Positions 8,241 to 47,130 of a DNA stretch of 64,000 nt are shown piece by piece. Below the pieces are notes generated by a model, which was not told the origin of the DNA, searched no databases, and saw nothing but the letters and a program-made list of their open reading frames with translations. This stretch comes from Atopobium sp. oral taxon 416. GTDB taxonomy: Bacteria > Actinomycetota > Coriobacteriia > Coriobacteriales > Atopobiaceae. The stretch covers positions 2,170,001 through 2,234,000 of the forward strand of contig NZ_CP072380.1 of NCBI RefSeq assembly GCF_018128285.1, in the 5' to 3' direction. The position numbers and the translations under genes were made by a program. The first letter of the stretch is position 1. Every line of letters begins with the position of its first letter.

Positions 8241-8250
8241 TGTGTTCTCC

Positions 8251-10391: not shown

Positions 10392-10439
10392 TAAAAAATC
10401 GCCCCAACAGCAGAACAGAAGTCCTACTGCAAGGGCGAT
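10392..10439 (-). terminator. Intrinsic terminator of the trp T-box leader
   Basis: On the minus strand ATCGCCC pairs with GGGCGAT, enclosing a loop that begins TTGCAGTAGG, and six T residues follow directly. The left arm lies next to the T-box, so it can form either the antiterminator or this terminator. Confidence 0.85.
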
Positions 10440-10700: not shown

Positions 10701-10939
10701 TCAATTTATAAGCATCATAGGGATTCAAGTAGAACGTAATACAGCACAGTCGGCATTGTTTAACGACCTGTAACATTTATTTCAGGATTATTGCTCATGT
10801 GGAGAGGAACAATATGGTACGCCTCTCATGTTATGGAGCGCAGCGAAGTTCAGACCGTGATGGACAACCTCTACAGGGCACTGGAAACCGCTTGGCGGTG
10901 AGCTTACTGACCCCCTGCCCCGCGTAGAGTTCACCTCAG

Positions 10940-12600: not shown

Positions 12601-12609
12601 AATCAACCA

Positions 12610-30479: not shown

Positions 30480-33020
30480 AAATCCCAAAACACTAAAGCC
30501 GCTGGGTAAAAGAGCACAGAGATAGGCTATCAGCTGCTTAAGTGCAGCGAGGCTAAAGAGGAAAAGCTCAAAAGCCTTATGCCAGGCGCAACAGAGAGCT
30601 TGAGATGGAAAATGCCTTCTTAAAGAAGTCATCTGCACAATGTGTGAACCGATATGTGAGCACTAGGCCCTCCCCAGCAGCGGTACCTTCACCCCCAAGC
30701 ATCTGAGCATCACCATCGCGAAGAGGTTGTCGAGGCTGCGAAAGCTATAGGCTATCCTAACGGTCAGCTTGATCTTGTTGTTGATGGTCTCCACGCGTGC
30801 GTTGGACAGGCCGCTCTCCAAGGTGGCGACTGTGGCATCCAGATGCCTTCTGATCTTCTTTTAGAGCTCGACGAACTTAGGGGATCCTCGAGCGCTAGGC
30901 CCTGCCCCTCTACTTCTCGATGCCCTCCCTGATCTTGTTAGCAGGCAGCTTCAGGGCAAGCCTTATCCCTTCCTTCAGCAGATATGCCCTGTGGAGCTGC
31001 AGCTGTGAGATCGTGGTGAGCTGAAGCGCCGCCTTCTGCCTTCGGTCAGGCTCTCTGGGTTCTTGAAGGAGGGGATAGCTTGGGCCCTTCACGGATGCAG
31101 CGGCCTTCCTTTCGGGGCTCGCCTCCTCCCCCTTCCTGGGGCGGGCGCGCCTCCCCTTCGGTGCTGCCTTGGCCTTCTGCACAGCCGCCCTCCATGACTG
31201 GCGGCACAGCCCGTCGAGCAGCTCCGTTGCCTACTGGACGATGTGGAAGGTGTCTGTGCAGCGCAGCGCATACGGTACCCACTCCTTCATCGCATCGTCC
31301 ACCCAACGCACCCCGTCCGCACTCACAAGGTCGATGGATGAGCTTCCCTTAACGGCGATCTGCTTGAAGAAGGCGTCGAAGACCTTGCGTCCATGGCCGT
31401 CATGTAGCTGTGGCCCTTCTTGTAGCTTGTCTCGTCCACACCTATCCACCTGAGGTCTGCCGTCTTTGGCGGCTGCCCCTGTTCGAGCCTTGCCAGCACG
31501 CGCGAGCATATCGCGCCCACCCACCTCCACAAGATGCGCAGAAGCTTTTGACAGGCAAGCTTGCTCATCGACAGCTCAAGCCAGCAGCAGCTGTCCTCAA
31601 AGGCACGGGGGAGCCAGCTACCATGGTCTGCCCAGGGGATCTGACGCACCGCGCAGTACCGCATTTTGGGCACCTCATCCTGAATGTATCCGCCTGGATA
31701 TACACCTTCGTGCCGACGACATTGGGGCATCTCCAGAGCCTGGTTCCCCTGCCTGCATCGTAGCAGGGGGGCCTTCTGCCCGCACTTGCCGCATCTGCAG
31801 GAGTGGGGCCTGTAGGGCCTTGGCGTCGATCACGATCGCCTGTGCGTCCTCGTCGAAGGACACATCCTCGACGCTGATCATAATCTTGACTAAGTTTGAG
31901 ATGCGCACGGTGCACTCCTTCTGCCGGGTCTTTACTTCGCAACTAAAAACCTACAGGAGAATGTGCCATGCCATCTGCGCATTCGCATATTCTTCATTCA
32001 CACATCGTGTCGAAGAGCCTCTTAAAGGCAGCTGTTAAGCCTTCTTTACAAAGGATCTTAAGTGCAATAGATTGTTACAAGCAGAAGCTTAAGGAGAAGG
32101 AAAACTTCCCGATCAAGATACAGGCTTTACTCCTTAAGGCATTACACTCAAGCTTTTATTCATGGGTGTTCTTTAGGAGCACCAGAAAACGGGTGCAGTG
32201 AGCTTACAGAGGCTATCGGGCGGGTGTGGGTGGACTCTGACAGAGGTTTTGGGGCTAGGTTCACACCCACTGCTATCTAGCTGATGAGTTTTCCAACACT
32301 ACCCTCTACAGGGTAGGAAAATGCATGCGCGAGCTTAAGAATAAAGGGCTCACTCCCTTTACAGATCAGAAGAGAACCACTGTCCCTGACAGATATGCCA
32401 AACCAAAGCCTGATCTTATACATTGTGACCTCATAAAGCCCTGACTCCACCTATAAGCTTGTTGGAGATATTACCTATCTCTTCACAGAAAAGGGCTGGT
32501 TCTATCTTTCTTGCTGTGTGAGACTTAAACACCTACATGGTGGTAGGCTTGATCGCTGTTGGATAGAACGGGAGCCGATAGTGTGCTAGATACACTGCAA
32601 GTGGCTAGGTGTCGAGGATATGTGGCAGAAAATGCAGCCTTTCATTCAGACAAAGGTGTCCAATACACCTCTTAGGTTTGTCTGCTCTGTGGGCTTAAGA
32701 TAAACGATGTGAGGCTCTCCTGCAGCCGCTGGGGTAACTACCACGATAGTGCCGTAGAGAGGTCTTTCTTTCCACTCTTAAAGGCGAGATGTACTAGCGA
32801 GAAGGCTTTGCAACAAGAAAGGATGCCATACATGCGCTAGCTGAATTCATTGAGGGCTACTACAACAGAAAACGTCCCCACTCAACGATCAACAACAAAA
32901 TTCCAGCGAAGGTAGTAGATGCTTTCTTTGAAAGAACGAAACCTATATCAGAAGAGGACCAGATATCACCATCCAATGCAGCTTAAAGATCTCAAGTTTT
33001 TGTGTCCGAAATATTGACAC
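30480..33020 (+). mobile_element. Second IS3-type element, split by an ISL3 insertion
   Basis: The end of an OrfA (LEMENAFLKKSSAQCV) is visible at about 30600-30650. The matching OrfB resumes at about 32000 after the ISL3 remnant: PIKIQALLLKALHSSFYSWV; TYKLVGDITYLFTEKGWFYL (first catalytic Asp); GNYHDSAVERSFF (catalytic Glu region); and GYYNRKRPHSTINNKIPAKV. The right end near 32999-33020 reads TGTCCGAAATATTGACACAGG. Many stops are present. It differs from copies A-C, so it is a separate IS3 lineage. Confidence 0.68.
30663..31950 (-). pseudogene. ISL3-family transposase (copy 3), frameshifted
   Basis: Read on the minus strand, the pieces run in order. First comes the N-terminal ISNLVKIMISVEDVSFDEDA, then GTKVYIQADTFRMRCPKCG for the zinc finger. 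RWIGVDETSYKKGHSY follows with the first catalytic Asp, then DLVSADGVRWVDDAMKEW for the second acidic region. Near 30700-30850 come RRHLDATVATLESG and the closing INNKIKLTVRIAYSFRS. Frame changes separate each block. It sits inside the second IS3-type element, an example of nesting. Confidence 0.72.
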
Positions 33021-33067
33021 AGGTCATCCCTCGCTCTCGATCGCACGGACGAGGAGGGCGGTGCCTG

Positions 33068-33624
33068 ATGGCAGACGACTACGGCGACGACTCCGGGCAG
33101 AAGATCCTGGACGACCTCACGCGCTTCGCGGAGCGCATGGGTGCCGCCGCCATGATCCGGCGCGCCGATGGCCTTCATGCCGCCCTTGAGCACGCGAAGG
33201 CGACAACCCACCAAGAGAAAACAAAAGACGGCGCGGAGCCCGTTGAGTACGCCAAGCTCGACATGCACGAGTTCCGCGCGCTCGACGACTACGACGGCAT
33301 CAAGAAGATCATCGAGGCGAACCATGCGGTGCCCACGGCGTGGACACCGCATGGTTCGCCGACGAGCAGCTAGGCAAGGAGTACCTGCTCTTCCACGTCT
33401 CGGACGCCCAGGAGGTCTGGCAGGGGCTCGACGAGCTCTCACGCGAGACCGAGGCCGCCAAGGCGAAGGCCCTGGAGAGGCTCGGGCGCGAAGCCGAGAA
33501 GGTCCGCGACGAGCGGCCCCTGGAAGAGCGCGCCAAGGAGGCGTGCAAGGCATCCGAGGCATTGGAGAACGATCGCGGGCACGCGCGCGTGCGCGAGAGG
33601 CCGGCTCCCGACCGGGAGAAGTGA
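33068..33624 (+). pseudogene. Conjugative-element PcfB-like (DUF3801-type) gene, frameshifted
   Basis: An ATG at 33068 begins a frame of about 100 codons (FAERMGAAAMIRRADG, EYAKLDMHEFRALDDYDGIK). Its sense shifts at about 33330-33345, where the bases form a short GC-rich palindrome. The second frame continues TAWFADEQLGKEYLLFHVSD and a charged tail ending DREK. In conjugative elements of this kind a small PcfB/DUF3801-like protein is encoded just before the VirD4-type coupling protein, and a coupling-protein fragment follows here at 35035. The family call is tentative. IS3 copy B cuts in at 33622. Confidence 0.5.
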
Positions 33625-35030
33625 GCTGTAATCTTTTGGTGGACAGTGGGATTCAGGGACTGGCAACAGATATGCTCTGTTTAGATGCCCACCTACCAAC
33701 ACCAGCAGATTGAAGCGATGAGATGTCGCTAAGCGCAAGCGAGATAGAGAAGGCAAAGTCCCGCACGAAGCCGGAAACACCCAAACACTACACTGAAGAA
33801 GTATTGCCTTAAGGCTATCGAGTACTACAGGAAGGCACGTAAGGCCAACCCGAAGAAGAGCATCAGAGAATGCGCCGCGAAGCTTGAGGCCAACGACAAG
33901 ACCTTAAACGACTGGATCATCAAGCACTCAAAGACCAAAAGGGTGACCCAGGAAAGGACTGACGAGCACAAGCAGCTCGACGCAGTGAACAGGCGTATAC
34001 ACGAGCTCGAAAGCGAGAATGAGTTCCTAAAAAAGAGGCAGCCTTCTTCGCCGGAAGCCTCTGTTGAAGGACAGGTTTTAGCTCATGCTGGAGAAGAGGG
34101 CAACCTACAGCGTCTCGATGATGGCGCGCGTACTGGAGGTGAGCAGGGCTCACTTCTACAGATGGCTCAAGGCCAAAGGCGGTAAGGACCCGTGGGGTCC
34201 CCTCAAGCAGGCCATCTGCGCGATATGGGAGGAAAGCGACAGGCGCTTTAGCTCCTGCTAGGTCTGATCCAAGCTCACAGGAGATCCGAAGTTACGCAAA
34301 ATTTACAGGCACGACCCGCTACCGCGTGCGCAGGTGCATGGCTAAGCTGGAGATAGGCGGCATCTGATCCAATGCCTCCAAGAGAACGATACTGCCCGCA
34401 CCTGATACCCCCGAGCGCCCCGACCTCACCCGGCGCGGCTTCTCGTGTCTTGTGCCGACAGCCAAGCTCGTGGGAGACACAACCTATCGCAGGACCACGG
34501 CAGGCTTTATATATCTCGCCGTCGCACACGATCTGTGCACACACATGGTGGTGGGCTGAAGCATACAGGACAACATGAGGGCAGGGCTTGTCGTCTTTGC
34601 CCTGAAGATGGCATATTCGCGCGGATACGTGGCCGGAGGGGCCATATTCTAAGCAGCCCAGGCAGCCAGTACATAAGCTCAAAGCTAGCCGCCTGCTCAG
34701 CCGCGCACGACGTGAGGCTCTCCGTGGGGAGAACCGGAAGCTGCCACGACAATACGGTCGCCGAATCGCTTTTCGCCACGCTCAAGAACGAGTGGTACTA
34801 CCATAAGCGCCTCTTAGACGCATCCACGACCAAGCACAAGGCACACGAGTTTAATCGAGTCGTACTACAACCGCTTCCGCCCGCATAAGTCCATAGGAGA
34901 TCGCGTACCGGCAGAGGTGATGCAGGAGTTCTTCGAGCGCCTCGAGAGAGGCCTTGCGTCCCGATCCAAAGGCGATGCAGACCGCATAAAAAATCTGAGA
35001 TTCCTCTGTCCATTATATTGACAGGGCTCA
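33622..35030 (+). mobile_element. IS3-family element, copy B (inactivated), with 3-bp target duplication
   Basis: The ends are the same as copy A (TGAGCTGTAATC and GACAGGGCTCA), about 1409 bp. It is flanked by direct AAG repeats at 33619-33621 and 35031-35033, as expected for IS3. The 3' half (about 34440-35000) matches copy A and carries the same one-base insertion at the OrfB C-terminus. OrfA and the first half of OrfB have their own substitutions and stops (for example near 34258). The insertion separates the pcfB-like gene from the coupling-protein fragment. Confidence 0.83.
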
Positions 35031-35034
35031 AAGC

Positions 35035-36904
35035 GCGCGCTTCAGGTGGGTCAGGGTGGCAGAGCCCGTCGCCGTGGAGGACGACTTCTGCCTTCTGCAC
35101 TACAAGATGTTCAAGGACGCGGCGGGGCGCACCGCCAAGTCCATCCTGGTCTCCTGCAACACGCGCATGGAGCCCTTCGCGATACCCCAGGTGCGCGAGC
35201 TCGTCTCCTACGACGAGATGGAGCTCGACAAGCTCGGCGACGCGGACTGCCGCCGCGCCATCTTCGCCATCGTGAGCGACACGAGCGGGCTCTGCTCGTT
35301 CCTCCTCGCGATCATGATGTGGCAGGCGGTGAACGTCCTCTGCCGCCGGGCGCTCTCACGCTACGGCGGGGCGCTTCCCACCCACGTGAGCTTCCTGCTC
35401 GACGAGTTCGCAAACATCGGGCGGCTCCCGGACATCGAGAGGACCATCGCTGTCGTCAGGAGCCGCAACGTGTCGGTGACCGTCTACCTGCAGTCGATGT
35501 CACAGCTCAAGAGCCGCTACAAGGACGACGCCGCGACCATCGTGGACTGCTGCGACACCACGGTCTTTTTGGGCGGCAAGTCCACCGACACCGTGCGCGA
35601 GATATCGGAGGCCGTGGGTAAGGAGACGGCAGGGTTACTGGGTTCAAGAGAGACGGCGCGCGGCATCGAGGAGTTCGATCGGGCTGCGCTCGTAGGGTGC
35701 GAGCCCGCACCCGAGGTCTACCCCGTGCGCATTCCCGTGACCAACTTGCGAGGAGAAGAAGACTGTATCCTCGTGCTTGAGATAGGTCCCTCATCGGGCC
35801 ATGTCATCTCCAGGCGCAGCGACAGGGCGGTCTTCCTGCGCCAGAAGGACAGCAGCGTCGAGCTCGAGCGCGATCCGGTGCTGGCGCTCGAGTACGACAA
35901 GAACCAACGCCGCTACGAGGACGAGGTGCAGGAGCGCTCCTCGATGGGGGACGTGGACCCCGAGGTGATGTCTCGCTACAAGACCGAGCTTGGCACGGAG
36001 GCGAGCGACGAGCTGGTCCTTCGGAGCTGCGGCTTCCTCCAGGATGGTCACCTCACCAACGCGGGGGTACTCCTCTTCTCGGAGAACCCCGCCAGGTTCA
36101 TGCCATGGGCTCGGGTGCGCGTCATCCGCCTCGACGGCAGCAAGATGGAGACGGGTCGCAGGCTCAACATCGTAAAGGATCGGACCTTCGACGGGCCGCT
36201 CCCCAAGACGATCGAGGGTGCGAAGGAGTTCATCTCGAGCCAGCTGAGGGAGTTCCAGTACCTCGGGGCCGACGACAGGTTCAAGGTCATACCGGAGTAC
36301 CCGGAGTTCGCCTGGTTTGAGGGGCTCGTGAACGCGGTCACGCACCGCGACTACGCGATGAGTGGCGACCATATCCGCGTGATGATGTACGACGACCACC
36401 TCGAGATAACGAGCCCGGGCAAGCTCCCCAACATCGTGACGCTCGAGAACATGAAGTATACCCGCCGGTCGCGCAATCCCACGATCGCGCGCACCCTGGT
36501 GGAGTTCGGCTGGGTCAGGGAGCTCAACGAGGGCGTGCAGCGCATTTACGATGAGATGGCGAGCTTCTTCCTGAGGGAGCCCACCTTCTCGGAGCCAAAC
36601 GGCGCCTCGGTGCGGCTTACGCTCGAGAACAGTGCGACTTCGCGCGTCCTGCGCCGGGGCGATTCGATTGCGAGTGACCTCGGCGAGGACGTGGTCGGCG
36701 CCCTGGGCGAGTACGAGCGTGCCGCCCTCCAGTACGTGTACGGGAGGGGAAGGGTGACGGTCAAGGAGCTGGTCGGCCATCTGGGTCGTAGCGCCAAGGG
36801 TGGCACGCGCGGCGCTGAAGTCGCTCTCGAAGAAGGGTATCCTCGGCTGGCACGGCACGAGTCCGACGGACCCATCCCAGTACTATGACCTCTACAGGGC
36901 ATAG
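35035..36904 (+). pseudogene. Chimera: VirD4/TraG coupling-protein fragment fused to AlbA_2/ATP-binding regulator
   Basis: One open frame from about 35056 to 36888 joins two unrelated proteins. The first ~190 residues are the C-terminal half of a type IV coupling protein (AAGRTAKSILVSC, VSFLLDEFANIGRLPD, SQLKSRYKDDA, FLGGKSTDTVREISEAVGKE). Its Walker A half is missing. The frame then enters a Schlafen AlbA_2 domain lacking its start (RAVFLRQKDSSVEL) and an ATP-binding half (GLVNAVTHRDYAMSGDH, VEFGWVRELNEGVQRIY). A one-base insertion near 36798 breaks the end; without it the protein would end WHGTSPTDPSQYYDLYRA at 36904. Conjugation function is lost. Confidence 0.75.
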
Positions 36905-37242
36905 TAGGGCAGAGCTCGGTCATAGCTTCCGGGCGTTTCGCAGGTAAGGGCAGGCGCAGGGCTATTACCAGAAGGGCATAGTGGGTTAGAGTAAAAACGG
37001 CCCGCCCGAGGGGCCCGCAGGTCCGGTAGCCCACGGAGGTCGAACCTCGGGTTCGAGCAGGTTCAAGTAGGTTCGAGCAGAAGCCTGGTTGCATGAACTT
37101 GAGCGCTATGCGCGCGACGGCCTTCAGCAACTGCAGCAGTGCTCTAAGCGCTCTCATGGTCGGCTTCCCTCCACTTGGCTTCGGCGAGCATGGCCTCAAG
37201 CTGCCCAACGGTGAACGTGGGGCCCTCCAGCTCGGCGACTGG

Positions 37243-37372
37243 CTATGCAGCCTGCGGTCCCCAGAGCGCCGTCGAGCTCATGTCAATGCCGAAGCTCTCG
37301 TCCGCCTTGCCCACGGCGGCGTGCTTGGCCTCCGAATCAAAGCCTGCGTATATGTCGAGCGTCAGTATTACC
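37243..37372 (-). pseudogene. Tyrosine integrase C-terminal tail
   Basis: On the minus strand the frame reads TLDIYAGFDSEAKHAAVGKA, then DESFGIDMSS and a stop at 37243-37245. This is the extreme C-terminus of a phage/ICE-type tyrosine recombinase, with the catalytic Tyr region in T-x-D-x-Y. The rest of the gene is missing, because the flippase fragment begins here on the other strand. The stretch from 36905 to 37243 holds a GC-rich hairpin near 36990-37015 and no gene I can support. Confidence 0.55.
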
Positions 37373-37749
37373 TCAGGGTTTTTGCGCTTATTGTGGTAGT
37401 GGTTGTTGCAATGATTGTGGTGCTCTCGTTTGTAGGAGCGCTCCTTCTCCGGTTTGTCTATGGTACGAGCATCGAGGAATACACCTACCTCTTCCCTTTG
37501 GTGATGGTGAGCACAGGTGAGATTGCCCTTGTCTGGTTCCTTACCGATTCTCTGGTCATTGCCCGTTGCATGCGTGGGGTTCTTATAATGAACGCTGGTG
37601 CCTTTGTTGTCTGTCTGGTATCGATGGTGCCGCTTGAGACAAGCTTTGGCATGAACGGCATCAATAGTACCGTTATCATATCGGTGCTTGTGGGGATTGG
37701 GCTGGGTGTATGCTTCCTTCGGGCGTCTATCGATGCATCGCTGGAGTAA
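37352..37749 (+). pseudogene. Polysaccharide flippase-like C-terminal fragment
   Basis: About 130 codons encode four hydrophobic segments (FALIVVVVVAMIVVLSF, LFPLVMVSTGEIALVWF, IMNAGAFVVCLVSMV, STVIISVLVGIGLGVCF), with a short polar end. The pattern resembles the last helices of Wzx/MATE-type membrane flippases. There is no start codon with a ribosome site, and the upstream part of the frame is unrelated. It is the severed end of a membrane protein gene. The family call is weak. Confidence 0.4.
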
Positions 37750-37846
37750 ACGTCAGCCCGGCGATAGGACCTTTAGCCACGGTAAGAAGAACAATGGAGG
37801 ACACTTTACCCAAGGTTGCCATCGGAAATTTATAGGTAGCCTAAAA

Positions 37847-38476
37847 TTATTTCAATTTATGTATTCCCTGAGAAGCACGACATGTACGTATGGCGTCACG
37901 AAGGGACTTTTGCAAGTGTTGCCCATCCGAATATCCTGTAGGTAGCAGGTTGACGAGGGCGAGTCCGAAATTCACCGCTGCTGTCTCCCCACAGATAAGT
38001 CGGATGACAGCCATTAGAAGCTCGCTGTGTACTAGAGCGTAGATGTCCGCTAGACTTTCCATTACTAAGATGGCAATACAAAGTAGCATGACATTCGCGC
38101 TAGGACCCGCGAAGTAAAAGAAGACACGCTCCCATCCCCCACGTCGCAGGGGTGGTGTTCTTACTGAGATGGGATGGCCGATACGGTCGAGCGAAACGAT
38201 CAGTTCAATGTGTTCTGCTCCTGCGAGCTTAGCTGCAGCAGCATGAAAGAGTTCATGTATGATGACACTAAGTAGCACCAGGGGAATGCACAAGACCCCT
38301 GCGACGACAGGCCCCAACTTCCGCGCGGTTGCGACGAAGCCATATGCAAGCTCTGTCCACGGAGTTGTGGGTACGAGCACAAAAAAAAGAACCCAGCCTA
38401 CGATAGAGGCCAAAAGTGCGGACATTCCCGCAATGCGGGGGATATGAAGGTTAACCTGTCTCTCCCCAGACCCCAC
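37847..38476 (-). CDS. M50-type (site-2-protease-like) intramembrane metalloprotease of the peptide operon
   Basis: This 209-residue integral membrane protein has hydrophobic segments near residues 19-37, 57-73, 120-140 and 150-178. The zinc motif HELFH is at 74-78, and the second metal motif NLLPTGYSDG is at 176-185. Together they define peptidase family M50 (HExxH plus NxxPxxxxDG). These enzymes cut substrates within or near the membrane. The GTG start has a GGAGGG site, 5 bases away. It is the last gene of the YcaO operon, 17 bases after the permease. Leader removal from the peptide, or processing of a membrane regulator, are the likely roles (inference). Confidence 0.85.
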   Translation of the reverse strand: MGSGERQVNLHIPRIAGMSALLASIVGWVLFFVLVPTTPWTELAYGFVATARKLGPVVAGVLCIPLVLLSVIIHELFHAAAAKLAGAEHIELIVSLDRIGHPISVRTPPLRRGGWERVFFYFAGPSANVMLLCIAILVMESLADIYALVHSELLMAVIRLICGETAAVNFGLALVNLLPTGYSDGQHLQKSLRDAIRTCRASQGIHKLK

Positions 38477-38493
38477 GGAGTCCCTCCTTGTGT

Positions 38494-39213
38494 CTAATCG
38501 GTTAGTCGCCGCATACGGAAGAGCACGAGGAACAGCACGACGAGTGCCATCGCGTTGACGGCGACCACCATGGCCTCCCGGGAGGTCATGGTGGTGCTGG
38601 CGAGGTCGGAGAACTGCTCATACGCTGGCTGGGTGTAGGTCCAGCGTGCAAAGGCTTCAAGCCTGTCGTTCAGCGATGACAGCATGGGGAGCATACCCAG
38701 CGCCATCGAAACGGGAGCTGAGATGGGCGCCGCATTGACCTGCCGCTTGGCCACGAGCGCTATGGCAAGGCCAATGAGCAGGGAGCACGCCACACACGCC
38801 GCATTCGTCATGAGGAATCTCTCCACCATGCCCGCATTGAGTCCGTCGATGCAGGGGAGGAAGAGCAGCGACGAGAGGATTGACGCCACGCCGATGGTGC
38901 CGGCAACACCACACAGGTAGGAAAGCGGCCCCACGCCGGACATCGTGAGCATGCGCAGCGTGCCTGCCTCCTTCTCCTCTGCGACAACGCTTGAGGTGTA
39001 GATGATGGGCACGATCAGTACATGCATCGTCATGAACATGGGCAGGGCACTTGCAAGCTGGGTCTCGGTCATGGCGTTCTTGAAGATAAGGGCAACCAGC
39101 GGGAACATGAGAAACATCATGAGCGCTGATTTGTTGCGTAGCGAGTCGACCACCTGCTTGTAAAAGACGGCGTCCACTCCATTTGGGCCACTGCCCGGCC
39201 GTGTTCCGCTCAT
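38494..39213 (-). CDS. ABC-2 type permease of the peptide operon
   Basis: This 239-residue protein has about six membrane segments: ALMMFLMFPLVALIF, ALPMFMTMHVLIVPIIY, LCGVAGTIGVASILSSLLF, AACVACSLLIGLAIALVA, MALGMLPML and VVAVNAMALVVLFLVLF. EEKEAGTLRMLTMSG is the conserved ABC-2 stretch between helices 2 and 3. The ATG at 39213 overlaps the ATPase stop (ATGA), so translation is coupled; an in-frame ATG 96 bases upstream would lie inside the ATPase gene. With the ATPase it should export the mature peptide or confer self-immunity. Which of the two cannot be told from the sequence. Confidence 0.88.
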   Translation of the reverse strand: MSGTRPGSGPNGVDAVFYKQVVDSLRNKSALMMFLMFPLVALIFKNAMTETQLASALPMFMTMHVLIVPIIYTSSVVAEEKEAGTLRMLTMSGVGPLSYLCGVAGTIGVASILSSLLFLPCIDGLNAGMVERFLMTNAACVACSLLIGLAIALVAKRQVNAAPISAPVSMALGMLPMLSSLNDRLEAFARWTYTQPAYEQFSDLASTTMTSREAMVVAVNAMALVVLFLVLFRMRRLTD

Positions 39214-40076
39214 TCCAGCTCCCTTCCCGTCAGCTGCAGAAAGACGGCCTCGAGGTTTGGGCTCTCGGTCGAAATCGAGGTGACGTTGCCTGCCTTCAGG
39301 ATAGCGCATATCTTGTCCGCATCTTTATTGATGTCTGAGAACCTGAAGCTCCGTTTGCCTTGAATCACTGTGACGCAGTGCTCCTTGCTATGGCGCGCGC
39401 ATATCTCGCGTGGGGCTCCTGCCTCGACGATCCTGCCCTCATTGAGGAGGATGACCCTGTCACAGATTTTTGTAGCCTCCTCCATGTTGTGGGTGGTAAG
39501 AAAGATCGTCACGCCGGTGGCCCGCCGCTTGAGGAGCAGTGCGTGGATATCCTCTGCGGTGCCAGGGTCAAGACCGCTTGTAGGTTCATCCAGGAAGAGG
39601 AGTTCGGGATCATGCATGAGCGCCCGCGCAAGGCTCAGGCGCTGCCGCATGCCCTTGGAGAGGTCCTGCGCACAGACCGAGCGGCTCTTGTCCAGGCCCA
39701 CGCGCTTCAGAATCTTGTCTGCGCATCCCATGTCTTTGATCCCGCGTGCCTTGAGGAACACCTTGAGGTTTTCCGTACAGGTAAGGCGCTCGTAGAGGCA
39801 AGGATCATCCAGAACGACGCCAATCCTCTTGCTGGCATCCGAAGAAAACGCCCGGGGTGGGTGTGAGAAGACGGAGACCTCTCCGGCATCGGGGGCGAGA
39901 AGCCCGAGCATGATCTTGATGAGGGTCGTCTTGCCGGCGCCCGAAGGCCCAAGGAGCCCGAGTATCTCCCCGTGCTGTACCCCCAGCGAGATGTCATCCA
40001 ACACGACATGGCTGCCGAACGCCTTCCTCACGTTGCCGAGCTCTATAACGTCCTCTGTAGTTCTGGGATCGTCCAC
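39210..40076 (-). CDS. ABC transporter ATP-binding protein of the peptide operon
   Basis: This 288-residue ATPase has Walker A GPSGAGKTT (43-51), signature LSKGM (139-143), Walker B LLFLDEP (159-165) and the H-loop in LTTHNMEEA. This is the CcmA/DrrA type that pairs with ABC-2 permeases. The GTG start at 40076 was chosen because AGGAGG lies 5 bases upstream. The longer frame back to 40298 would run across the hairpin and the end of the precursor gene and encodes no family sequence. It follows the precursor gene by 137 bases and overlaps the permease gene. Confidence 0.92.
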   Translation of the reverse strand: MDDPRTTEDVIELGNVRKAFGSHVVLDDISLGVQHGEILGLLGPSGAGKTTLIKIMLGLLAPDAGEVSVFSHPPRAFSSDASKRIGVVLDDPCLYERLTCTENLKVFLKARGIKDMGCADKILKRVGLDKSRSVCAQDLSKGMRQRLSLARALMHDPELLFLDEPTSGLDPGTAEDIHALLLKRRATGVTIFLTTHNMEEATKICDRVILLNEGRIVEAGAPREICARHSKEHCVTVIQGKRSFRFSDINKDADKICAILKAGNVTSISTESPNLEAVFLQLTGRELE

Positions 40077-40177
40077 GATGCCTCCTGATGTGGTTGCTAT
40101 CTGAAGGAATGAGATGATGGATGGTGATGAATAGGCAGGCCAGCGTGGCCGCCCAAACACACTGGACCCACGATACA

Positions 40178-40205
40178 CCCCTGGCAGTGTAACGGCTGCC
40201 AGGGG
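40178..40205 (-). promoter_or_regulatory. Hairpin between precursor gene and ABC genes
   Basis: A perfect 10-bp stem (CCCCTGGCAG with CTGCCAGGGG) has an 8-base loop and starts 9 bases after the precursor stop. No T-tract follows, so it is unlikely to be a full terminator. It could stabilise the precursor mRNA or reduce expression of the downstream genes, as happens after precursor genes in other ribosomal-peptide operons. Confidence 0.6.
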
Positions 40206-40213
40206 TAGGGGCG

Positions 40214-40366
40214 TTACGCTGCGAAGGAAGCTGCTACGGCGCAGCCAATAGCAGCGGCACCCGCAGACGCACTTGTCGCTTCCTCGTAGGTCTCGCAAAT
40301 CTCTTCGCCCAGGATAGTCGCATTATCGAGTTCCTCCTGGAGCATCAAGCCATACTTCTTCTCCAT
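40214..40366 (-). CDS. Putative RiPP precursor peptide (50 residues)
   Basis: This small gene has a strong site (GGAGGGAGGAG) ahead of ATG 40366 and a TAA stop at 40214. The leader-like part begins MEKKYGLMLQEELDN and continues acidic, with Glu/Asp-rich ILGEEICETYEEA to residue 30. The last 20 residues, starting TSASAGAAAIGC, contain ten Ala, two Gly, three Ser, one Thr and one Cys, and end SFAA. An acidic leader with a small-residue tail fits a ribosomally made, post-translationally modified peptide. It lies between the YcaO and ABC genes on the same strand. The tail holds few Cys/Ser/Thr residues for azoline formation. I recognise no named family. An alternative is a secreted signal peptide processed by the M50 protease. 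Confidence 0.75.
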   Translation of the reverse strand: MEKKYGLMLQEELDNATILGEEICETYEEATSASAGAAAIGCAVAASFAA

Positions 40367-40441
40367 TGTCTCCTCCCTCCTTTATATCCGCATCTTTAAG
40401 TCCCATCCCCAATCGCAGAGAAGTAGGACTCATTGCCATAG

Positions 40442-42262
40442 TTAAGCGAGGGGATCTCGCTGGGATATGTCAGCACTGATCTCTGTTTGCTTGAGCGTGT
40501 AGAAGATATTGGAGATGCGGTCATAGATGTCCCGATAGCGTTCGTAAGGCGTTTCGCCATCACGTACTACGCCAGGGTATTGCTTCATCACGATTTGGGC
40601 CGGATTTACAAAGACCCTATCAAGTCGATCGCAGATGTCTGAGGTAAAAAACATTCTAAGGTATCCGATGACTTCATCATGGTCACCCATAGCTCCCATC
40701 GCTTCGGCATATTTCAGAACAGCGCGATACCATGGTGCGTCTGGAGAGTCTAGTTTGTCTGCGTGTTTCACTACTACTTTAAGTGATGGTACAGACTTTT
40801 CATACTCGCATTTAGATAGATGGCACATAGCAATCATGTACATACAGCCGCCATTGATACTTTCGGCGGGAAGATCTTCTTCCCGGGCGATACCGTAATA
40901 AGATGCCATGGTGTTCTCAAATGCATTGCCCAAAAAGTAGTTCATAACACCGATGACGTAATCTGCATTTCTACCATGAATTTCTTCAGGCTTATTGTTA
41001 AGCAAATTTGCCACGAAATAACGTGTGTTTGTTGCCCTGAACTGGGCATCCGTTACCTTCTGCATCTCAGATAGGCCAGGGATAATGATATGATAGGAGG
41101 GGAAGCCGAAGTACGAGACATCGCGGATAAGTACATCCCAACCCTGTGCTAGTAGACTATCAATCATATGACGCGCCTGTTTCTCATTGGACAATCTTGA
41201 TACATCCACAGGTTCATCGAACTCGAAGGAGGGACATCGCCTGAAGAGCTGGTAGGGATACTTTCCCATACCAAACTTGAAGCTGTTGTAGATATTGAGA
41301 GAACTCCTCACATTCTCGTTCGAGAAGTCGAGAGTCGATCGATCGGTGTAATCGAAGAAGTCTTGGCCCTGGGTAGCCTCAGTCATACAACGTTCCATGG
41401 CAATGCCAAAGTCGGGGTGACAGCCAAGCTTAATGCCAAATCTTCCTGTATTAAGTTCGGTAACGACAAGGCCGGCTACCGGGTATTTCCGTGAACAGAG
41501 CTTCATTGATACACGATAATCCTTGTTATTCTCAGCTAAGGAGAGCCTTTCATCAATCTCGGGGAATCGTTTGATATAGGCTCGTGGAACATCTGGAAGT
41601 GATGGCATGTTGACAAAGAGATTGGTCTGCACAACACGTTCCAAAATCTCGGATATACCTTGAACAATCGCTTCGGCGCTCGTGTTGCCTGCGCACATCC
41701 CGTTACTTCCGTAGTATACGTTGTAGGTGCTCTTGGGCAGGTAAACAACCTTATGGTTCCGCATACTGTAGAAGGGAAGAGTGACGTACGAATCCTCTAA
41801 GCCATAGACCATGCTGTCGACCTTCTGGAGATTGCGGAATGCTTGCGCCTTCTTTGATACAGAAGAGCCGTCTATTCCTCGTTGGCTGAAATACATATGC
41901 ATAAAGGCATTGTCCTGTGAGGCAATCTCCTTTGAAGACATGATGCGTTCATCCGCTGCATATAAGAAAGGAAGTTTGTCACCATAAGTCACACGTGGAC
42001 CCATCATATCGTTTTGATACCGCTCGAACAGCTCTGCGTAGCCGCTTGCACGAGCGAATTCCTTTGAGACTCCCTTGCCATTAGCACCTAGGCCAGTACC
42101 CTTGAACTCCACACGCAACGCGTTGGTTTTGATTGAACTGGTCTCCTGCCACGACTCCGTAACGGGAATGTTGTTCTCTGCTAAAATAGTATGAAGTCGT
42201 TCCACGGTAGCGACGGGTGACGCCTCTTTGTAGTGGGCTCGCTGTGCTTCTGATCCAACCAT
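40442..42262 (-). CDS. Stand-alone YcaO-family protein
   Basis: This 606-residue YcaO enzyme keeps the ATP/Mg-binding acidic motifs ELFER (77-81), EILER (205-209) and TEATQGQ (294-300), plus SNGMCAGNT (186-194). YcaO enzymes activate backbone amides with ATP to form azolines, amidines or thioamides. This sequence reads like E. coli YcaO in the SNGMxAGNT and SExxER stretches. It has a long C-terminal helical region (about 450-606) and no PxPxP tail. No E1-like, TfuA or dehydrogenase partner is encoded nearby. ATG 42262 follows TGGAGG by 6 bases; a TTG 21 bases upstream is weaker. It heads an operon with the precursor, ABC transporter and protease. Base composition looks less GC-rich than the flanks, suggesting transfer. 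Confidence 0.9.
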   Translation of the reverse strand: MVGSEAQRAHYKEASPVATVERLHTILAENNIPVTESWQETSSIKTNALRVEFKGTGLGANGKGVSKEFARASGYAELFERYQNDMMGPRVTYGDKLPFLYAADERIMSSKEIASQDNAFMHMYFSQRGIDGSSVSKKAQAFRNLQKVDSMVYGLEDSYVTLPFYSMRNHKVVYLPKSTYNVYYGSNGMCAGNTSAEAIVQGISEILERVVQTNLFVNMPSLPDVPRAYIKRFPEIDERLSLAENNKDYRVSMKLCSRKYPVAGLVVTELNTGRFGIKLGCHPDFGIAMERCMTEATQGQDFFDYTDRSTLDFSNENVRSSLNIYNSFKFGMGKYPYQLFRRCPSFEFDEPVDVSRLSNEKQARHMIDSLLAQGWDVLIRDVSYFGFPSYHIIIPGLSEMQKVTDAQFRATNTRYFVANLLNNKPEEIHGRNADYVIGVMNYFLGNAFENTMASYYGIAREEDLPAESINGGCMYMIAMCHLSKCEYEKSVPSLKVVVKHADKLDSPDAPWYRAVLKYAEAMGAMGDHDEVIGYLRMFFTSDICDRLDRVFVNPAQIVMKQYPGVVRDGETPYERYRDIYDRISNIFYTLKQTEISADISQRDPLA

Positions 42263-42313
42263 GTAATGCCTCCAGGTATCCAACTTCTGGTTTACGCGCT
42301 ACCTTCAAGGCGG

Positions 42314-42337
42314 TTCAATACAGTATAACATTCAATA
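42314..42337 (-). promoter_or_regulatory. Candidate promoter/operator of the YcaO operon
   Basis: On the minus strand an extended -10, TGTTATACT (42322-42330), is bracketed by two direct TATTGAA repeats (42331-42337 and 42314-42320). The start codon is about 50 bases downstream. No good -35 is visible, which fits an activator-dependent or extended -10 promoter. The repeats may be an operator. Between 42338 and 42690 I see no other gene. Confidence 0.4.
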
Positions 42338-42695
42338 GTGCGATATCGTAGAGCGGTTATTTAGAGTTTAGAGTAACGCTTACATTTCTATTGTGCTCCA
42401 TATCTCTGCAATCAAAAACCAGCTGCATTTCAAGATTTTTATGGCACTGCATCACTTTTTGATGGCTTCGCCGACCTTGTATTTTATTTCACGTCCATTC
42501 TTCGATCATTAACGCCCCGTTTAGTCTGAATCAGTTTCGCTTCGTCTTTGTACAAGTAATGTGGCTGCCAGTTTCTAGACACATTTGCACCTGACTTTGC
42601 GAAAGCCTGACAATGTGCAGCGATGCACGGAAGGGGTCCTTGCCCGGCTGCGTGGGGTTGCAGGGGGTGGCTCTCCGGCTCCTGCGTCTCCAGGA

Positions 42696-43340
42696 TCAGG
42701 GGTCGCACTTGAGGCCGAACTCAGCCATCTGCGCCCGCGACTCGGCGCGCATGCGCCTGAGGGCCTGAAAGGTGTGCTTCGCGAGCGGAATCGTGGGCGC
42801 CGAGCTCTGGATCTTGGGTTCTTTGACGTAGAAGCCGCCGCCGTTTCCCAGGGCGTGGCTCACGGCTATAGTGCCGCCGTCGGAGAGGTCGGACCACCTG
42901 GGGGCACAGGCCTCGCCGCGCCGCATGACCGTGGTGAGGGCTATCTCCACCGCAAAGTCAAAGGGCTGGAGCTCCGCCTCCATGACGAGGCGCAGCATTC
43001 GCGTGCGCTCCTCGCGCGAGAGGGCGTCTATCGGCGTCTTCACGCGTTTGAGCGGCTTGCAGAAGTCGCGGTGGTCTTGAACTGAGGTTCTGCGCCATGG
43101 CTCACTTGAGCAGGCGGAAGGCCTTCGAGCAGCTTTTGAGCACGTAGCCGACGGCGGTCGTGTCGTGTATCCATCCGGAGACGTCCGGTATGGAGAGCTC
43201 GGCGAGCTTCATGTTGCCGAGGTGGCGGCAGATGATGCGCGTCTCGGCGTGGTGGCCGCGCACCGTGGAGGGCTCTATGGTGCCCGAACCCTCCCCGTGG
43301 CGCATGAAATTAGAGAAACTACAGGTCAGACGCATATCGG
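42696..43340 (-). pseudogene. Tyrosine integrase, truncated and frameshifted
   Basis: The N-terminal core-binding domain is at about 43110-43320 (GTIEPSTVRGHHAETRI, HLGNMKLAELSIPDV). After a frame change near 43100 the catalytic domain begins: LSREERTRMLRLVMEAE, with the first catalytic Arg in MRRGEACAPRWSDL, then VKEPKIQSSAPTIPLAKHT. It ends without the HxLR and Tyr boxes. The arm-binding N-terminus is also missing, and the gene's 5' edge lies about 50 bases from the tRNA-Met core at 43388. It is inactive. Confidence 0.75.
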
Positions 43341-43387
43341 CTGTGCTGTGGATTGGCAAGATTTACGGTGAAACGGCCTCTGACGCC

Positions 43388-43432
43388 CTCATAACCCGGA
43401 GGTCGTTGGTTCAAATCCAGCCCCCGCGACCA
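43388..43432 (+). other. Attachment-site core: 3' half of tRNA-Met (CAT)
   Basis: These 45 bases run from the anticodon loop CTCATAA through the T-arm (GTTGG TTCAAAT CCAGC) and acceptor CCCCGCG to ACCA. The bases left of the loop do not pair with the anticodon stem, so identity to a tRNA starts exactly at the anticodon loop. That is a usual crossover point for tyrosine integrases. A short hairpin with a T-rich tail follows (43440-43476). Confidence 0.78.
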
Positions 43433-43475
43433 AAACTTATACCCTGGCCTGCGAAAACAGGTCGGGGTTTTCTTT

Positions 43476-43518
43476 TGACCGACATCTGACCGCCAACCTG
43501 ACCGACATTTTACCGCCA
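43476..43518 (+). repeat. Four phased direct repeats TGACCG(A/C)CA beside the attachment core
   Basis: TGACCGACA starts at 43476 and 43499, TGACCGCCA at 43487, and TTACCGCCA at 43510. The starts are 11, 12 and 11 bases apart, about one helical turn each. This placement and phasing are typical of arm-type integrase or excisionase binding sites. Confidence 0.65.
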
Positions 43519-43565
43519 AAAACTTTTCGCGGGTAGCCAAAAACGCCGTGAAAACCGCCCTCTGG

Positions 43566-43688
43566 TTGCGGCGTGGCGCAAGCAGCAGTTGTTAACATGC
43601 GCGCCGGCGCAAATATGGTTGCGGTACAAAGAAACCTCTTCTGCGCTCCAGCGCAAGCAACTAAGGGTGAATTTGCGCCCTGGCGCAA
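43566..43688. repeat. Four dyad repeats of the form TGCG-N6-CGCAA
   Basis: The sites are 43566-43581 (TTGCGGCGTGGCGCAA), 43597-43612 (ATGCGCGCCGGCGCAA), 43641-43656 (CTGCGCTCCAGCGCAA) and 43673-43688 (TTGCGCCCTGGCGCAA). The starts are 31, 44 and 32 bases apart. They fill the gap between the attachment core and the excisionase-like gene and could bind a dimeric regulator or replication protein. Confidence 0.65.
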
Positions 43689-43898
43689 CCGTTCTGAACT
43701 TATCTTTGAATTTTTATAAAAGAAATGGCCCGAGAAGGGCTCAAACCGCCCGAGTTTTCAACAGACGTCGCAATCCCCCATCGCATCACCTCGAAGCGCT
43801 TCCACTCGAACTTGCGGTGACTTCCGCCCAACGATCGCCTTCCGGCATAGCGTGCCCACTAGAGACGAATCAGAAGCAACGGAGGCGGGAGGATTCCC

Positions 43899-44135
43899 AT
43901 GGAGGAGAAGAGCGAAGCAAGGACAAGCCCAGAGGGGGAGATTTTCACCCTGGCTCAGGCGGCGGAGTACTTGAACGCCTCCCTTTCCACGGTGCTCAGG
44001 CTGGTCAACAGTGGCGAGTTGCGGGCATTTAGGATCCGAAAGGCCTGGCGAACGAGCAGCGGCGCATGCGATGAGTTCGTAAAGCGGCAATTCGCGGACC
44101 AGGCCGTGGTATGCAAGTCGGTAGACGAGGGCTAA
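43899..44135 (+). CDS. Excisionase-type helix-turn-helix protein
   Basis: This 78-residue protein has a MerR-like HTH_17 fold: IFTLAQAAEYLNASLSTVLR, then LVNSGELRAFRI. Such proteins act as recombination directionality factors or small regulators of mobile elements. The ATG follows GGAGGATTCCC. It stands 200 bases after the dyad repeats and overlaps the next gene by 25 bases. It probably belonged to the element that used the tRNA-Met core. Confidence 0.78.
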   Translation: MEEKSEARTSPEGEIFTLAQAAEYLNASLSTVLRLVNSGELRAFRIRKAWRTSSGACDEFVKRQFADQAVVCKSVDEG

Positions 44136-44533
44136 GTGGGGCGAGGAAGGAAAGCACCTTCGCCCTGTACGCCAAGCAGAGCTTCACGATCCTGCCCGAT
44201 GCCCTCGTGGGCGTCCTCGTCGCGCGGCAGGTCGGCAGGAACGGCTGGGCGGTCATGGCGGCGCTCTGCCATGCGATCTTTTCCGACGGCAGGATAGGCG
44301 TCATGTCGAGCAACGAGGTCTGCGCGCGTACGGGACTCACGAAGTACCAGGTGGCGCGTGGCATGACGGAGCTGCGTGACAAGGGAATCATCGCACCCGT
44401 GATCAGGACTAATGCCGAAGGCTACCGCCATCCGGACCGCTCGAACTACGGCCACGTCGCGCGCTACTGCATCTGCCGCGACATCTGGGCACTCGTGGAG
44501 CTCAAGGAAACGGGAGATCCGCCCCTCGGATAG
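44111..44533 (+). CDS. Winged-helix replication-initiator-like protein (RepL type)
   Basis: This 140-residue protein has a central winged helix (IGVMSSNEVCARTGLTKYQV, then ARGMTELRDKGIIAPV). The context of excisionase, this protein and an XRE regulator suggests an integrative plasmid, in which RepL-like proteins start replication; other DNA-binding roles are possible. Its start overlaps the excisionase gene. Between 44534 and 44819 there is no gene. The call rests on fold and neighbourhood, not on a clear family signature. Confidence 0.5.
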   Translation: MQVGRRGLSGARKESTFALYAKQSFTILPDALVGVLVARQVGRNGWAVMAALCHAIFSDGRIGVMSSNEVCARTGLTKYQVARGMTELRDKGIIAPVIRTNAEGYRHPDRSNYGHVARYCICRDIWALVELKETGDPPLG

Positions 44534-44819
44534 AATTTTCTCGAGCACCCTCGCACGGGGGCTCCCAGACGCACGTCGAACCGCCGTGAAGCGGCACCCA
44601 GGGCGCGCGCCAGGGGCCTTCAGCGGAGCAAGACGAAAAGCCCGTGGCCGAGCCTGGTCACTCTGACTCCGAGCGGGAACCCTCGAATCGAAGGTGGAAT
44701 TCGCACGGGACCCCTGCGAGCCGCTACCTTCCTGCCATCCGACCGGGAGGCTGCAGCGACATAGACGCTCCAAGCCGTGACCGGCACGACGCCGTGCGGT
44801 CGGAAGGCAGGAGTGAACC

Positions 44820-45119
44820 ATGGAACTCAACAGGTACATCGCGAGCAAGATCGCGCTCGCCCGGGAGATGTCGGGCATGTCCATAGCGACGCTGGCACGC
44901 CGCGCGGGCATGACCCCCAACGCCCTGAGCGAGAGCCTGCGCGGCAACCGCACGCTCACGGCGGCCGAGCTCGTTGAGCTCGCGCTGGTCCTGGATATCG
45001 ACCTCGTCTGCTTCGTCGAGAAGGAGCGCTTCGACGAGATCGTCGAGCGCCGCCAACAGGTGATCGATGAGTTCGGCTCCGGTGCCGGCATGTCCGACCT
45101 CAGGCAGGTGCGCAGGTGA
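44820..45119 (+). CDS. XRE-family helix-turn-helix regulator
   Basis: This 99-residue protein has a Cro/CI-type HTH near residues 12-55 (MSIATLARRAGMTPNALSES, LRGNRTLTAAELVELALVLD). The C-terminal part is charged. The ribosome site GGCAGGAG precedes the ATG. It overlaps the next, truncated frame by one base (TGATG). It probably controls the mobile element's own genes. Confidence 0.82.
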   Translation: MELNRYIASKIALAREMSGMSIATLARRAGMTPNALSESLRGNRTLTAAELVELALVLDIDLVCFVEKERFDEIVERRQQVIDEFGSGAGMSDLRQVRR

Positions 45120-45211
45120 TGGGGAAAGCGCCGGGTGACGAGGCGCACGCGACCGCGCGCGAGGTGGCCCTGTGCCTTTTGAAGCACAGGAGCAAGGAGA
45201 TCATGGACTGA
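45119..45211 (+). pseudogene. 5' fragment of a gene truncated by IS3 copy C
   Basis: Thirty codons (MGKAPGDEAHATAREVALCL, then LKHRSKEIMD) end at a TGA that belongs to the IS3 end itself. The start overlaps the XRE stop, so the gene was coupled to the regulator. The missing part cannot be found on the other side of the IS. The product is unknown. Confidence 0.5.
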
Positions 45212-46615
45212 GCCCTGTCAATATAATGGACAGAGGAATCTCAGATTTTTTATGCGGTCTGCATCGCCTTTGGATCGTATGCAAGGCCTCTCTCGAAACG
45301 CTCGAAGAACTCCTGCATCACCTCTGCCGGTACGCGATCTCCTATGGACTTATGCGGGCGGAAGCGGTTGTAGTATGACTCGATAAACTCGTGTGCCTTG
45401 TGCTTGGTCGTGGATGTATCCGAGAGGCGCTTGTGGTAGTACCATTCGTTCTTGAGCGTGGCGAAGAGCGATTCGGCGAGCGCATTGTCGTGGCAGCTTC
45501 CGGTTCTCCCCACGGAGAGCCTCACGTCGTGTGCAGCTGAGCAGGCGGCCAGCTTTGAGCTTATGTACTGGCTGCCTGGGCTGCTTAGAATATGGCCCCT
45601 CCGGCCACGTATCCGCGCGAATATGCCATCTTCAGGGCAAAGACGACAAGGCCTGCCCTCATGTTGTCCTGTATGCTTCAGCCCACCACCATGCGCGTGC
45701 ACAGATGGTGCGCGACGGTAAGATATATAAAGCCTGCCGTGGTCCTGCGATAGGTTGTATCGCCCACGAGCTTGGCTGTCGGGACGGGGCACGAAAAGTC
45801 GCGCCGGGTGAGGGCAGCGCGCTCGGGGGTATCAGGTGCGGGCAGCGTCGTTCTCTTGGAGGCATTGGATCAGATGCCGCAGATGCCAAGCTCGACCATG
45901 CACCTCCGTACGCGGTAGCGGGTCGTGCCTGTAAATTTTGCGTAACTTTGGATCTCCTGTGAGCTTGGTCCATACCTTGCGAAAGCTAAAGCGCCTGTCG
46001 CTTTCCTCCCATATCGCGCAGATGGCCTCCTTGATAGGACCCCACGGGTCCTCACCGCCTTTGGCCTTGAGCCATCTGTAGAAGTGAGCCCTGCTCACCT
46101 CCAGTACGCGCGCCATCATCGAGACGCTGTAGGTTGCCCTCTTGGCCAGCATGAGCTAAAACCTGTCCTTCAACAGAGGCTTCCGGCGAAGAAGGCTGCC
46201 ACTTTTTTAGGAACTTATTTTCGCTTGCGAGCTCGTGCATGCGCCTGTTCACTGCGTCGAGCTGCTTGTGCTCGTCGATCCTTGCCTGGGTCACCCTTTT
46301 GGTCTTTGAGTGCTTGATGATCCAGTCGTTTAAGGTCTTGTCGTTGGCCTCAAGCTTTGCGGCGCATTCTCTGATGCTCTTCTTAGGGTTGGCCTTACGT
46401 GCCTTCCTGTAGTACTCAACAGCCTCAAGGCAATACTTCTTCAGTGTAGTGTTTGGGTGTCCCCGGCTTCGTGCGGGACTTTGCCTTCTCTATCTCGCTT
46501 GCGCTTAGCGACATCTCATCGCTTCAATCTGCTGGTGTTGGTAGGTGGGTATCTGGACAGAGCATATCTGTTGTTAGTCCCTGAATCCCCCTGTCCACCA
46601 AAAGATTACAGCTCA
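45209..46615 (-). mobile_element. IS3-family element, copy C
   Basis: This 1407-bp element has the same ends as copies A and B, in reverse orientation. Its OrfB C-terminus is in frame over the DDE region (SCHDNALAESLFATLKNEWY, then FIESYYNRFRPHKSIGDRV). It therefore lacks the one-base insertion present in A and B. OrfA and the OrfB N-terminus still have frame breaks (for example around 45830-45970 and 46150), so it is probably inactive. There is no target duplication (flanks GAC and CCT). Confidence 0.82.
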
Positions 46616-47130
46616 CCTTGCGGACTCGTTCAGCTAAAGATACAGCCACAGGAATGTAAGGGATGGCTGCATGGAGCTGCTGCACGAGATGTGTCTCATC
46701 CATGTCACGCTCTTCGGCATCGCAGCCACCGCGACGGTCCCGCCGAAGATGCCTTCGATCTTGCCTTAAGCCGCTTACAGTTCAGGGAGCCTAACTATGC
46801 TGGAGGTACTCAGCTATTTTGGCTGAAAAACATGTTTTCAGGATAGGTTAGTATTAGGTTCGTTTGATTTCTAATCTATTTCCAATTAATTACGGCCTGT
46901 GAGTGGTCAAATATTGCTGAATCTAACAGTCTGGATAACGGGTGATAGTGTATCTTTGTCGGACTGCAGAAACTGGCCTCGGCCATCATCATATGGTGAA
47001 CCACTCTTGCAGTTTCAGGCCACCTATCACGGGCTTGGTTGGCCCGGAAGAGGTAGATCTACTAGTTGAGATAGCCCTGCATGCTAACCATCGGCATGTC
47101 TGTGAAGCGCCAGACCCACCCGTTATCTAG
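46616..47130. other. Stretch without a recognisable gene
   Basis: I find no supported gene here. TATGCTGGAGGTACTCAG near 46797 echoes the end of the IS1595 remnant near 23020, so part may be an element end. The remainder is short frames without family features. Confidence 0.4.

Follow-up and report, generated by a model that had tools for sequence, protein, structure and literature searches.

The epeXEPAB operon of Bacillus subtilis encodes a precursor peptide, a radical-SAM epimerase, the M50 membrane peptidase EpeP, and the ATP-binding cassette (ABC) pair EpeAB. EpeP is proposed to trim the precursor, and EpeAB is reported to give self-immunity (PMC12871923, PMC10885120). A comparable set of parts is found in Atopobium sp. 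oral taxon 416, within a stretch of 64,000 nucleotides (the window) that covers positions 2170001 to 2234000 of a single-contig 3.0-Mb genome. There, five open genes run along the minus strand from 42262 to 37847 and encode, in order, a YcaO enzyme, a 50-residue peptide, an ABC ATPase, an ABC-2 permease, and an M50 protease (Table 1). The likeness is one of parts, namely five genes comprising a precursor, one modifying enzyme, an M50 peptidase, and an ABC pair, and it extends to a terminator structure reported to follow the precursor gene, ahead of the next one (PMC12871923), to which a hairpin in the window may be compared. Their gene orders differ, and the modifying enzyme is a radical-SAM epimerase in one and YcaO in the other, Pfam finding no such epimerase among the operon genes here. 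By analogy, the cassette is best read as an epipeptide-operon parts list in which YcaO has replaced the radical-SAM enzyme.

The enzyme has its best solved match in Escherichia coli YcaO (EcYcaO), of the group that thioamidates ribosomal protein uL16. EcYcaO makes a thioamide without TfuA and without a recognition element (RRE) of the kind named for ribosomally synthesized and post-translationally modified peptides (RiPPs). A few non-acidic members of its group sit in contexts that suggest RiPPs, and the sulfur route was left open by Rice et al. (PMC13063428). Set against these systems, the window operon is fairly likely (a probability of about 0.62) to be a mobile RiPP cassette, whose Ala-rich peptide would be modified by YcaO, trimmed by the M50 protease, and exported by the ABC pair. 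An earlier note on this DNA had proposed a five-gene operon that makes, processes, and exports a modified Ala-rich peptide. Its strand, order, and coordinates hold for all five genes, by open reading frames (ORFs) and Pfam matches; the peptide cassette, with a short precursor gene beside a modifying enzyme, a protease, and an exporter, stands as well, and the modification itself is postulated.

The operon has the signals expected of translated genes. Purine-rich sites lie just upstream of the starts of YcaO, the peptide, the ATPase, and the M50 protein, and the permease gene starts with an ATG that overlaps the stop codon of the ATPase gene (ATGA). YcaO comes first, and 75 bp separate its end from the peptide gene. 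The M50 protein contains HExxH and, further on, an N-x2-P-x5-DG string, which we take to be M50 motifs. Transcription presumably begins upstream of YcaO; a promoter search gave no consensus match there (the 5-kb region has 3 promoter-like sites versus 4.6 expected). For the 60 nucleotides around the hairpin, the folding energy is -28.4 kcal/mol (z -2.72); 1 of 200 shuffles was equally stable, and none of 2000 mononucleotide shuffles of the 134-nucleotide gap reached its 11-bp stem. Because it lacks a T run, it is read as a putative processing, stabilizing, or partial-stop element. An Rfam scan of 33000 to 47000 gave no matches.

What kind of YcaO is this? EcYcaO is its best solved match, both by sequence and by structure model, and it models as an E. 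coli YcaO-type enzyme along its whole length, in that a YcaO domain with its nucleotide-site residues kept is followed by a C-terminal TPR-like part. The model reached a pLDDT of 34 from the single sequence and 67.3 from an alignment that included viral-contig loci; the comparison was a VIA re-ranking of Foldseek matches in which residues 535 to 606 are barely covered. The best NCBIfam model is the EcYcaO equivalog; NF040716 scores 179 against a cut-off of 700. Shared with the EcYcaO group are the solved match, TPR-like part included, and the lack of TfuA and of an RRE, the latter by general scans without RRE-specific models, such that a hidden RRE is possible. The window enzyme differs from that group in that it is sporadic, lies on repeated DNA, is paired with a peptide gene, and is not strongly acidic, a feature of the uL16-thioamidating enzymes: its isoelectric point is 5.88, versus 4.4 for EcYcaO, 4.46 for an enterobacterial locus, and 4.75 and 4.93 for two phage YcaOs. 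The idea that it is a housekeeping-type enzyme for uL16, beside the peptide by accident, is highly improbable, as its EcYcaO matches are set against that isoelectric point, the low NF040716 score, a sporadic distribution, and the repeated, mobile-looking DNA around it.

The peptide reads MEKKYGLMLQEELDNATILGEEICETYEEATSASAGAAAIGCAVAASFAA. Residues 1 to 30, opening with MEKKYGL, are acidic (charge -7), and residues 31 to 50 are hydrophobic, 50% Ala, and uncharged, with T31, S32, S34, C42, and S47, ending in SFAA. It matches nothing in Pfam, NCBIfam, PHROGs, or PADLOC, and among solved structures only weakly (E 0.29). A 50-residue ORF is by its length alone compatible with chance. As a gene it is supported by its ribosome-binding site, by its identity in all four copies of the cassette (weak support alone, as the copies are so alike), and by a probable relative ahead of an M50-like gene.

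That relative came from a search of 140 family genomes, 42 of which gave some match at E up to 1. The best match outside the three genomes that carry the cassette is in G038, another genus (E 0.0025 per genome); it has its own ATG, begins MEKEKYGLLTNEEIDEISLGG..., and is Ala-rich like the window peptide. The two have the common opening MEK[E]KYGL and are 52% identical over the first 21 residues. In G038, an M50-like gene lies 84 bases downstream on the same strand, and ABC genes adjoin the pair in convergent orientation. The M50-like protein matches PF02163 at E 0.00051 (19.9 bits, below the 27.2 cut-off) and the window M50 protein at 30% over 76 residues (E 0.006). Among the same 140 genomes, relatives of the window M50 protein occur in three, all of them cassette copies, and those of the G038 protein in one, itself. 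An HE..H scan of 19 non-self peptide matches at 17 separate places found the string at 7, with an M50-like context, by eye, only in G038. PF02624 occurs in 11 of the 140 family genomes, and G038, not being one of them, has no YcaO. A peptide and M50 pair is thus probable in two lineages, with YcaO in one. The peptide has no relatives in viral_contigs; in plasmids, where the G038 peptide was the query, none were found either.

How might the cassette work? The precursor would be the 50-residue peptide, composed of an acidic leader and an Ala-rich hydrophobic core. YcaO would bind the leader or the core and, at the cost of ATP, activate at least one amide in the core backbone, with no separate E1 or RRE partner gene. 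The M50 protease would then remove the leader at the membrane, in the way proposed for EpeP; export of the product, protection of the producer, or both would fall to the ABC pair, EpeAB being reported to give self-immunity. Through the hairpin, more precursor may be produced than transporter and protease. A backbone thioamide formed with sulfide as the sulfur source and without TfuA is a tentative first guess, put at somewhat below even; it is favored because the enzyme is EcYcaO-type and lacks PxPxP, and because EcYcaO makes its thioamide without TfuA or RRE (PMC13063428). An azoline at Cys42 or at a Ser or Thr is a second and more doubtful guess. The hydrophobic Ala-rich core and the gene kit suggest a membrane-active bacteriocin or a signal as the likeliest product. 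A defense function was considered and rejected; PADLOC gave only ATPase models, on the ABC protein.

The cassette is not confined to one place, a point beyond the earlier note. The YcaO protein has matches in 6 of 150 relatives, in 8 of 396 genomes in the class, and, at E 1e-10, in 1 of 376 in the phylum, its own genome included. Whole or partial, the cassette itself occurs as four copies in three genomes at more than 99% DNA identity: in the window, at about 662,150 to 666,560 of the same genome, in G030 (record JALCMG010000001.1), and in G352 (probably record NZ_LR027573.1). Over the DNA present, identity to the window is 99.8% for the second copy, 99.5% for G030, and 99.7% and 99.8% for the two pieces in G352. 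Both named records that have a close YcaO belong to Olsenella (family Atopobiaceae, phylum Actinomycetota). With this identity and an unchanged peptide in all four copies, the cassette moved recently.

Of the four, only the window copy is fully intact; the other three are damaged or cut off. (i) In the second copy, a one-base deletion splits YcaO into open frames of 141 and 501 residues. (ii) The G030 cassette starts at YcaO residue 271, at a contig end. (iii) G352 retains YcaO residues 519 to 606 only, with a Mu/rve-type transposase-like frame (E 4.7e-6) next to them; its M50 gene holds about 1.75 kb of unrelated DNA, with a Mutator-family transposase (E 1e-94) further on. A T tract in the M50 gene is one base shorter in all three of these copies, which puts M50 residues 1 to 37 and 31 to 209 in different frames; the tract may serve phase variation or slippage, or may simply reflect decay.

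The surroundings suggest that the cassette is mobile between bacteria, the evidence being the 99.2% repeat around the second copy, the TraG-like part, the flanking insertion-sequence-like repeats, and the spread over two genera. The frame that joins a TraG-like C-terminal part to a RecG-C-like HATPase domain is perhaps a deletion junction in a conjugative element. The insertion-sequence-like repeat has a third copy at 20806 to 22217, the three being 93 to 96% identical, and a relative in L021 encodes an rve_3 integrase-core frame. Between 42696 and 43359 lie frames of 115 and 85 residues that resemble pieces of a tyrosine recombinase by eye, with no Pfam match at 1e-3. Small frames ending AGAGFEPTTSGL were seen at 809 to 1108 of L021 and 4505 to 4711 of L014; we take this ending to be a typical read-through of a tRNA 3' end, and the frames are possibly attachment-site remnants.

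Table 1. Features of the operon and its surroundings (window coordinates)
Feature	Positions	Strand	Evidence or remark
YcaO enzyme, 606 aa	40442..42262	-	PF02624 E 2.4e-44
Precursor-like peptide, 50 aa	40214..40366	-	ORF and ribosome-binding site
Hairpin, 11-bp perfect stem, 8-nt loop, no T run	40177..40206	-	Begins 7 bases past peptide stop codon
ABC transporter ATPase	39210..40076	-	PF00005 E 4e-33
ABC-2 permease	38494..39213	-	PF12698 E 9.8e-8; 5 hydrophobic segments
M50 intramembrane metalloprotease, 209 aa	37847..38476	-	PF02163 E 6.1e-8; PF13398 E 2e-7
T tract in M50 gene, 8 bases (sense strand)	38381..38388	-	7 bases in 3 of 3 other copies
Stretch recurring at 99.2% around second copy, 9.8 kb	35031..44811		Repeat within same genome
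TraG/VirD4-like coupling-protein part and RecG-C-like domain, one frame	35056..36888	+	PF12696 E 5.2e-28; PF02534 E 1.1e-22; PF13749 E 6e-22
Insertion-sequence-like repeat, left flank	33621..35030		Repeat comparison
Insertion-sequence-like repeat, right flank	45205..46618		Repeat comparison

Does YcaO elsewhere keep company with such a peptide? The earlier note had asked for a neighborhood check of this pairing, and the outcome is divided: all four near-identical cassettes keep the peptide, and none of the more distant family loci has it. These are 11 loci in eight family genomes (one each in G003, G079, G089, G385, and G426, and two each in G073, G375, and G414). On the contigs of all 11, no peptide relative was found at E up to 1; one weak match in G089 lies on a contig other than that of its YcaO. 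Small frames with a ribosome-binding site at seven of the loci include none like the window peptide by eye. An M50 motif scan found none at nine loci, and the matches in L016 and L049 were read as antisense frames. L015 and L099 stop at or near the YcaO start, with the upstream side outside view.

Several weaknesses of a YcaO-modified peptide follow from these comparisons. The YcaO-peptide pairing rests on one recently spread cassette, given that the distant loci lack the peptide and M50. As G038 has the peptide and M50 without YcaO, the peptide family does not need YcaO. The G038 match itself, at E 0.0025, would be expected about 0.35 times by chance over 140 genomes and leans on its gene context, and a two-row profile that included it found two more genomes (E 8e-4 and 0.0018) with matches in larger frames and no M50 neighbor. 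None of the three other copies has an unbroken M50 gene or a whole YcaO (two have a broken YcaO, and a contig end truncates that of the third), such that the cassette as a whole may be under weak selection. The substrate that EcYcaO binds and needs is a folded protein, not a linear peptide (PMC13063428). The peptide core has few Cys, Ser, or Thr residues, and a hidden RRE is possible.

The alternative that survives best is that the peptide is an unmodified Ala-rich bacteriocin or pheromone, with peptide, M50, and ABC genes as the working unit and YcaO as a passenger that has another substrate. The G038 pair beside ABC genes without YcaO favors it, as do the 11 distant YcaO loci. It is nevertheless unlikely: YcaO heads the operon a short distance before the peptide gene, and the YcaO end directly precedes the peptide in all four copies. 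Less likely still is decaying mobile cargo that no longer gives a product in most hosts. The broken YcaO of the second copy, the truncated one beside unrelated DNA in G352, and the three disrupted M50 frames are what such decay would leave, yet the window copy keeps five open frames with motifs and translation signals, and the peptide is unchanged throughout.

YcaO enzymes commonly form azolines in RiPPs, and the peptide has Cys, Ser, and Thr residues that could be cyclodehydrated (C42, S47, T31, S32, and S34). Might the operon then encode a reduced linear azoline-containing peptide (LAP, also called TOMM), with YcaO acting on Cys42 or a Ser or Thr? This is improbable as an account of the whole locus: PxPxP was not found in the window YcaO, the NCBIfam SagD model scores 38.7 bits against a cut-off of 219.25, and the E1-like/RRE C protein and dehydrogenase of the streptolysin S type are not present, Pfam and NCBIfam finding neither an E1-like nor a dehydrogenase gene among the operon genes. 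TfuA was not found in the organism's own genome (0 of 1; the control gave a match in 1 of 14 genomes), which sets the operon apart from the YcaO-TfuA thioamidated RiPPs, with which it shares a YcaO beside a peptide (PMC8120280). The earlier note was right on both absences.

Two further classes invite comparison. In daptide clusters, a PF02163 peptidase fused to an RRE occurs with ABC genes and sometimes YcaO; like the window operon, these clusters come from Actinomycetota and have a hydrophobic helical core (PMC10036551, PMC12670281). They differ in that Pfam finds none of their decarboxylase (oxidative), aminotransferase, and methyltransferase genes among the operon genes; their core has a C-terminal Thr, whereas the window peptide ends in Ala; the two daptide YcaOs studied carry PxPxP; and the daptide peptidase has an N-terminal RRE (PMC10036551, PMC12670281). 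Streptamidine shares a standalone YcaO, a peptide that is not rich in Ser, Thr, or Cys, and ABC genes; the cluster studied needs amiB, amiC, amiE, and iron-transporter genes, none of which is in the window operon (for the ami accessory genes, by Pfam), and the ALV common to its motifs A and B is absent from the window peptide, although some streptamidine relatives also lack amiB and amiE (PMC8442711). Both identities are set aside because defining features fail.

In the open-access literature, YcaO was not found together with Olsenella, which is not proof of absence. Among accessible texts, YcaO with a precursor peptide, M50, and ABC in a RiPP context yielded only a protease review, and standalone YcaO with a precursor peptide and a metalloprotease yielded only a Pseudomonas pan-genome paper.

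The YcaO protein matches 25 plasmid records, none over more than 80% of the query (identities of 23.6 to 31.2% among the matches listed), and one phage record (28.9%). The cassette DNA matches 51 plasmid records, none over more than 80% of the query; the best 10 of the 51 cover 2 to 3%, all in the ATPase gene, and one phage record covers 2%. In viral_contigs, the window YcaO alone found nothing, and a seven-row YcaO alignment found 13 loci, the best at 33%. The peptide, M50, and ABC set was not seen at 11 of these 13 (eight within about 4.5 to 13.5 kb; L076 and L077 left out). A tree groups the window YcaO with those of L070 and L071 (support 97/96), with long branches that leave its placement unsure. 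In L070 and L071, the closest non-identical YcaOs occupy 1 to 1827, right at the border of predicted phage regions that contain, by eye, tail-like genes; the DNA covered at these two loci is that downstream of YcaO.

Other YcaO loci have their own company. In G003, YcaO adjoins two LanM-like proteins (DUF4135 and LANC_like); the locus (L015, contig C74, 440 to 9452) comprises YcaO, LanM-like proteins of 969 and 948 residues, and a 347-residue protein without a Pfam match, and is a possible YcaO-modified lanthipeptide cluster. A 350-residue protein beside YcaO in G414 (L097, 9397 to 10449) looks related to the latter by eye. On the phage contigs L073 (about 8181 to 13326), L075 (8001 to 13651), and L078 (about 8178 to 10908), YcaO is followed by an Asn/Ser/Gly/His/Cys repeat frame (e.g., NTCSNGSHS), and radical-SAM-like CxxxCxxC frames were seen by eye (two in L073 and in L075). 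These look like phage-borne modified repeat proteins.

Is the window cassette a new RiPP class? The earlier note had suggested a new minimal type of no recognized class. The missing E1, dehydrogenase, and TfuA genes bear this out in part; the kit itself is already known, being the epeXEPAB parts list, daptides combine similar genes (PMC12871923, PMC10885120, PMC10036551, PMC12670281), and EcYcaO-like enzymes in RiPP contexts are already in print (PMC13063428). New class status is not proven. It is possible, though we would not count on it, that an epipeptide-type kit with a lone E. coli YcaO-type enzyme, free of E1, RRE, and TfuA partners, makes a membrane-active product from an Ala-rich helical peptide by thioamidating its backbone or changing it in another way; the kit would be carried on mobile DNA in Atopobiaceae, with the T7/T8 tract perhaps acting as a switch. 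The route comprises one enzyme, one 50-residue substrate, a protease, and a transporter, and could be reconstructed in full in E. coli. If the reading is true, the cassette would offer a minimal system for asking what lets an EcYcaO-type enzyme pick out a linear peptide when no recognition partner is present, and what supplies its sulfur or other nucleophile; it would also tie an enzyme group known for ribosomal protein modification to mobile peptide cassettes.

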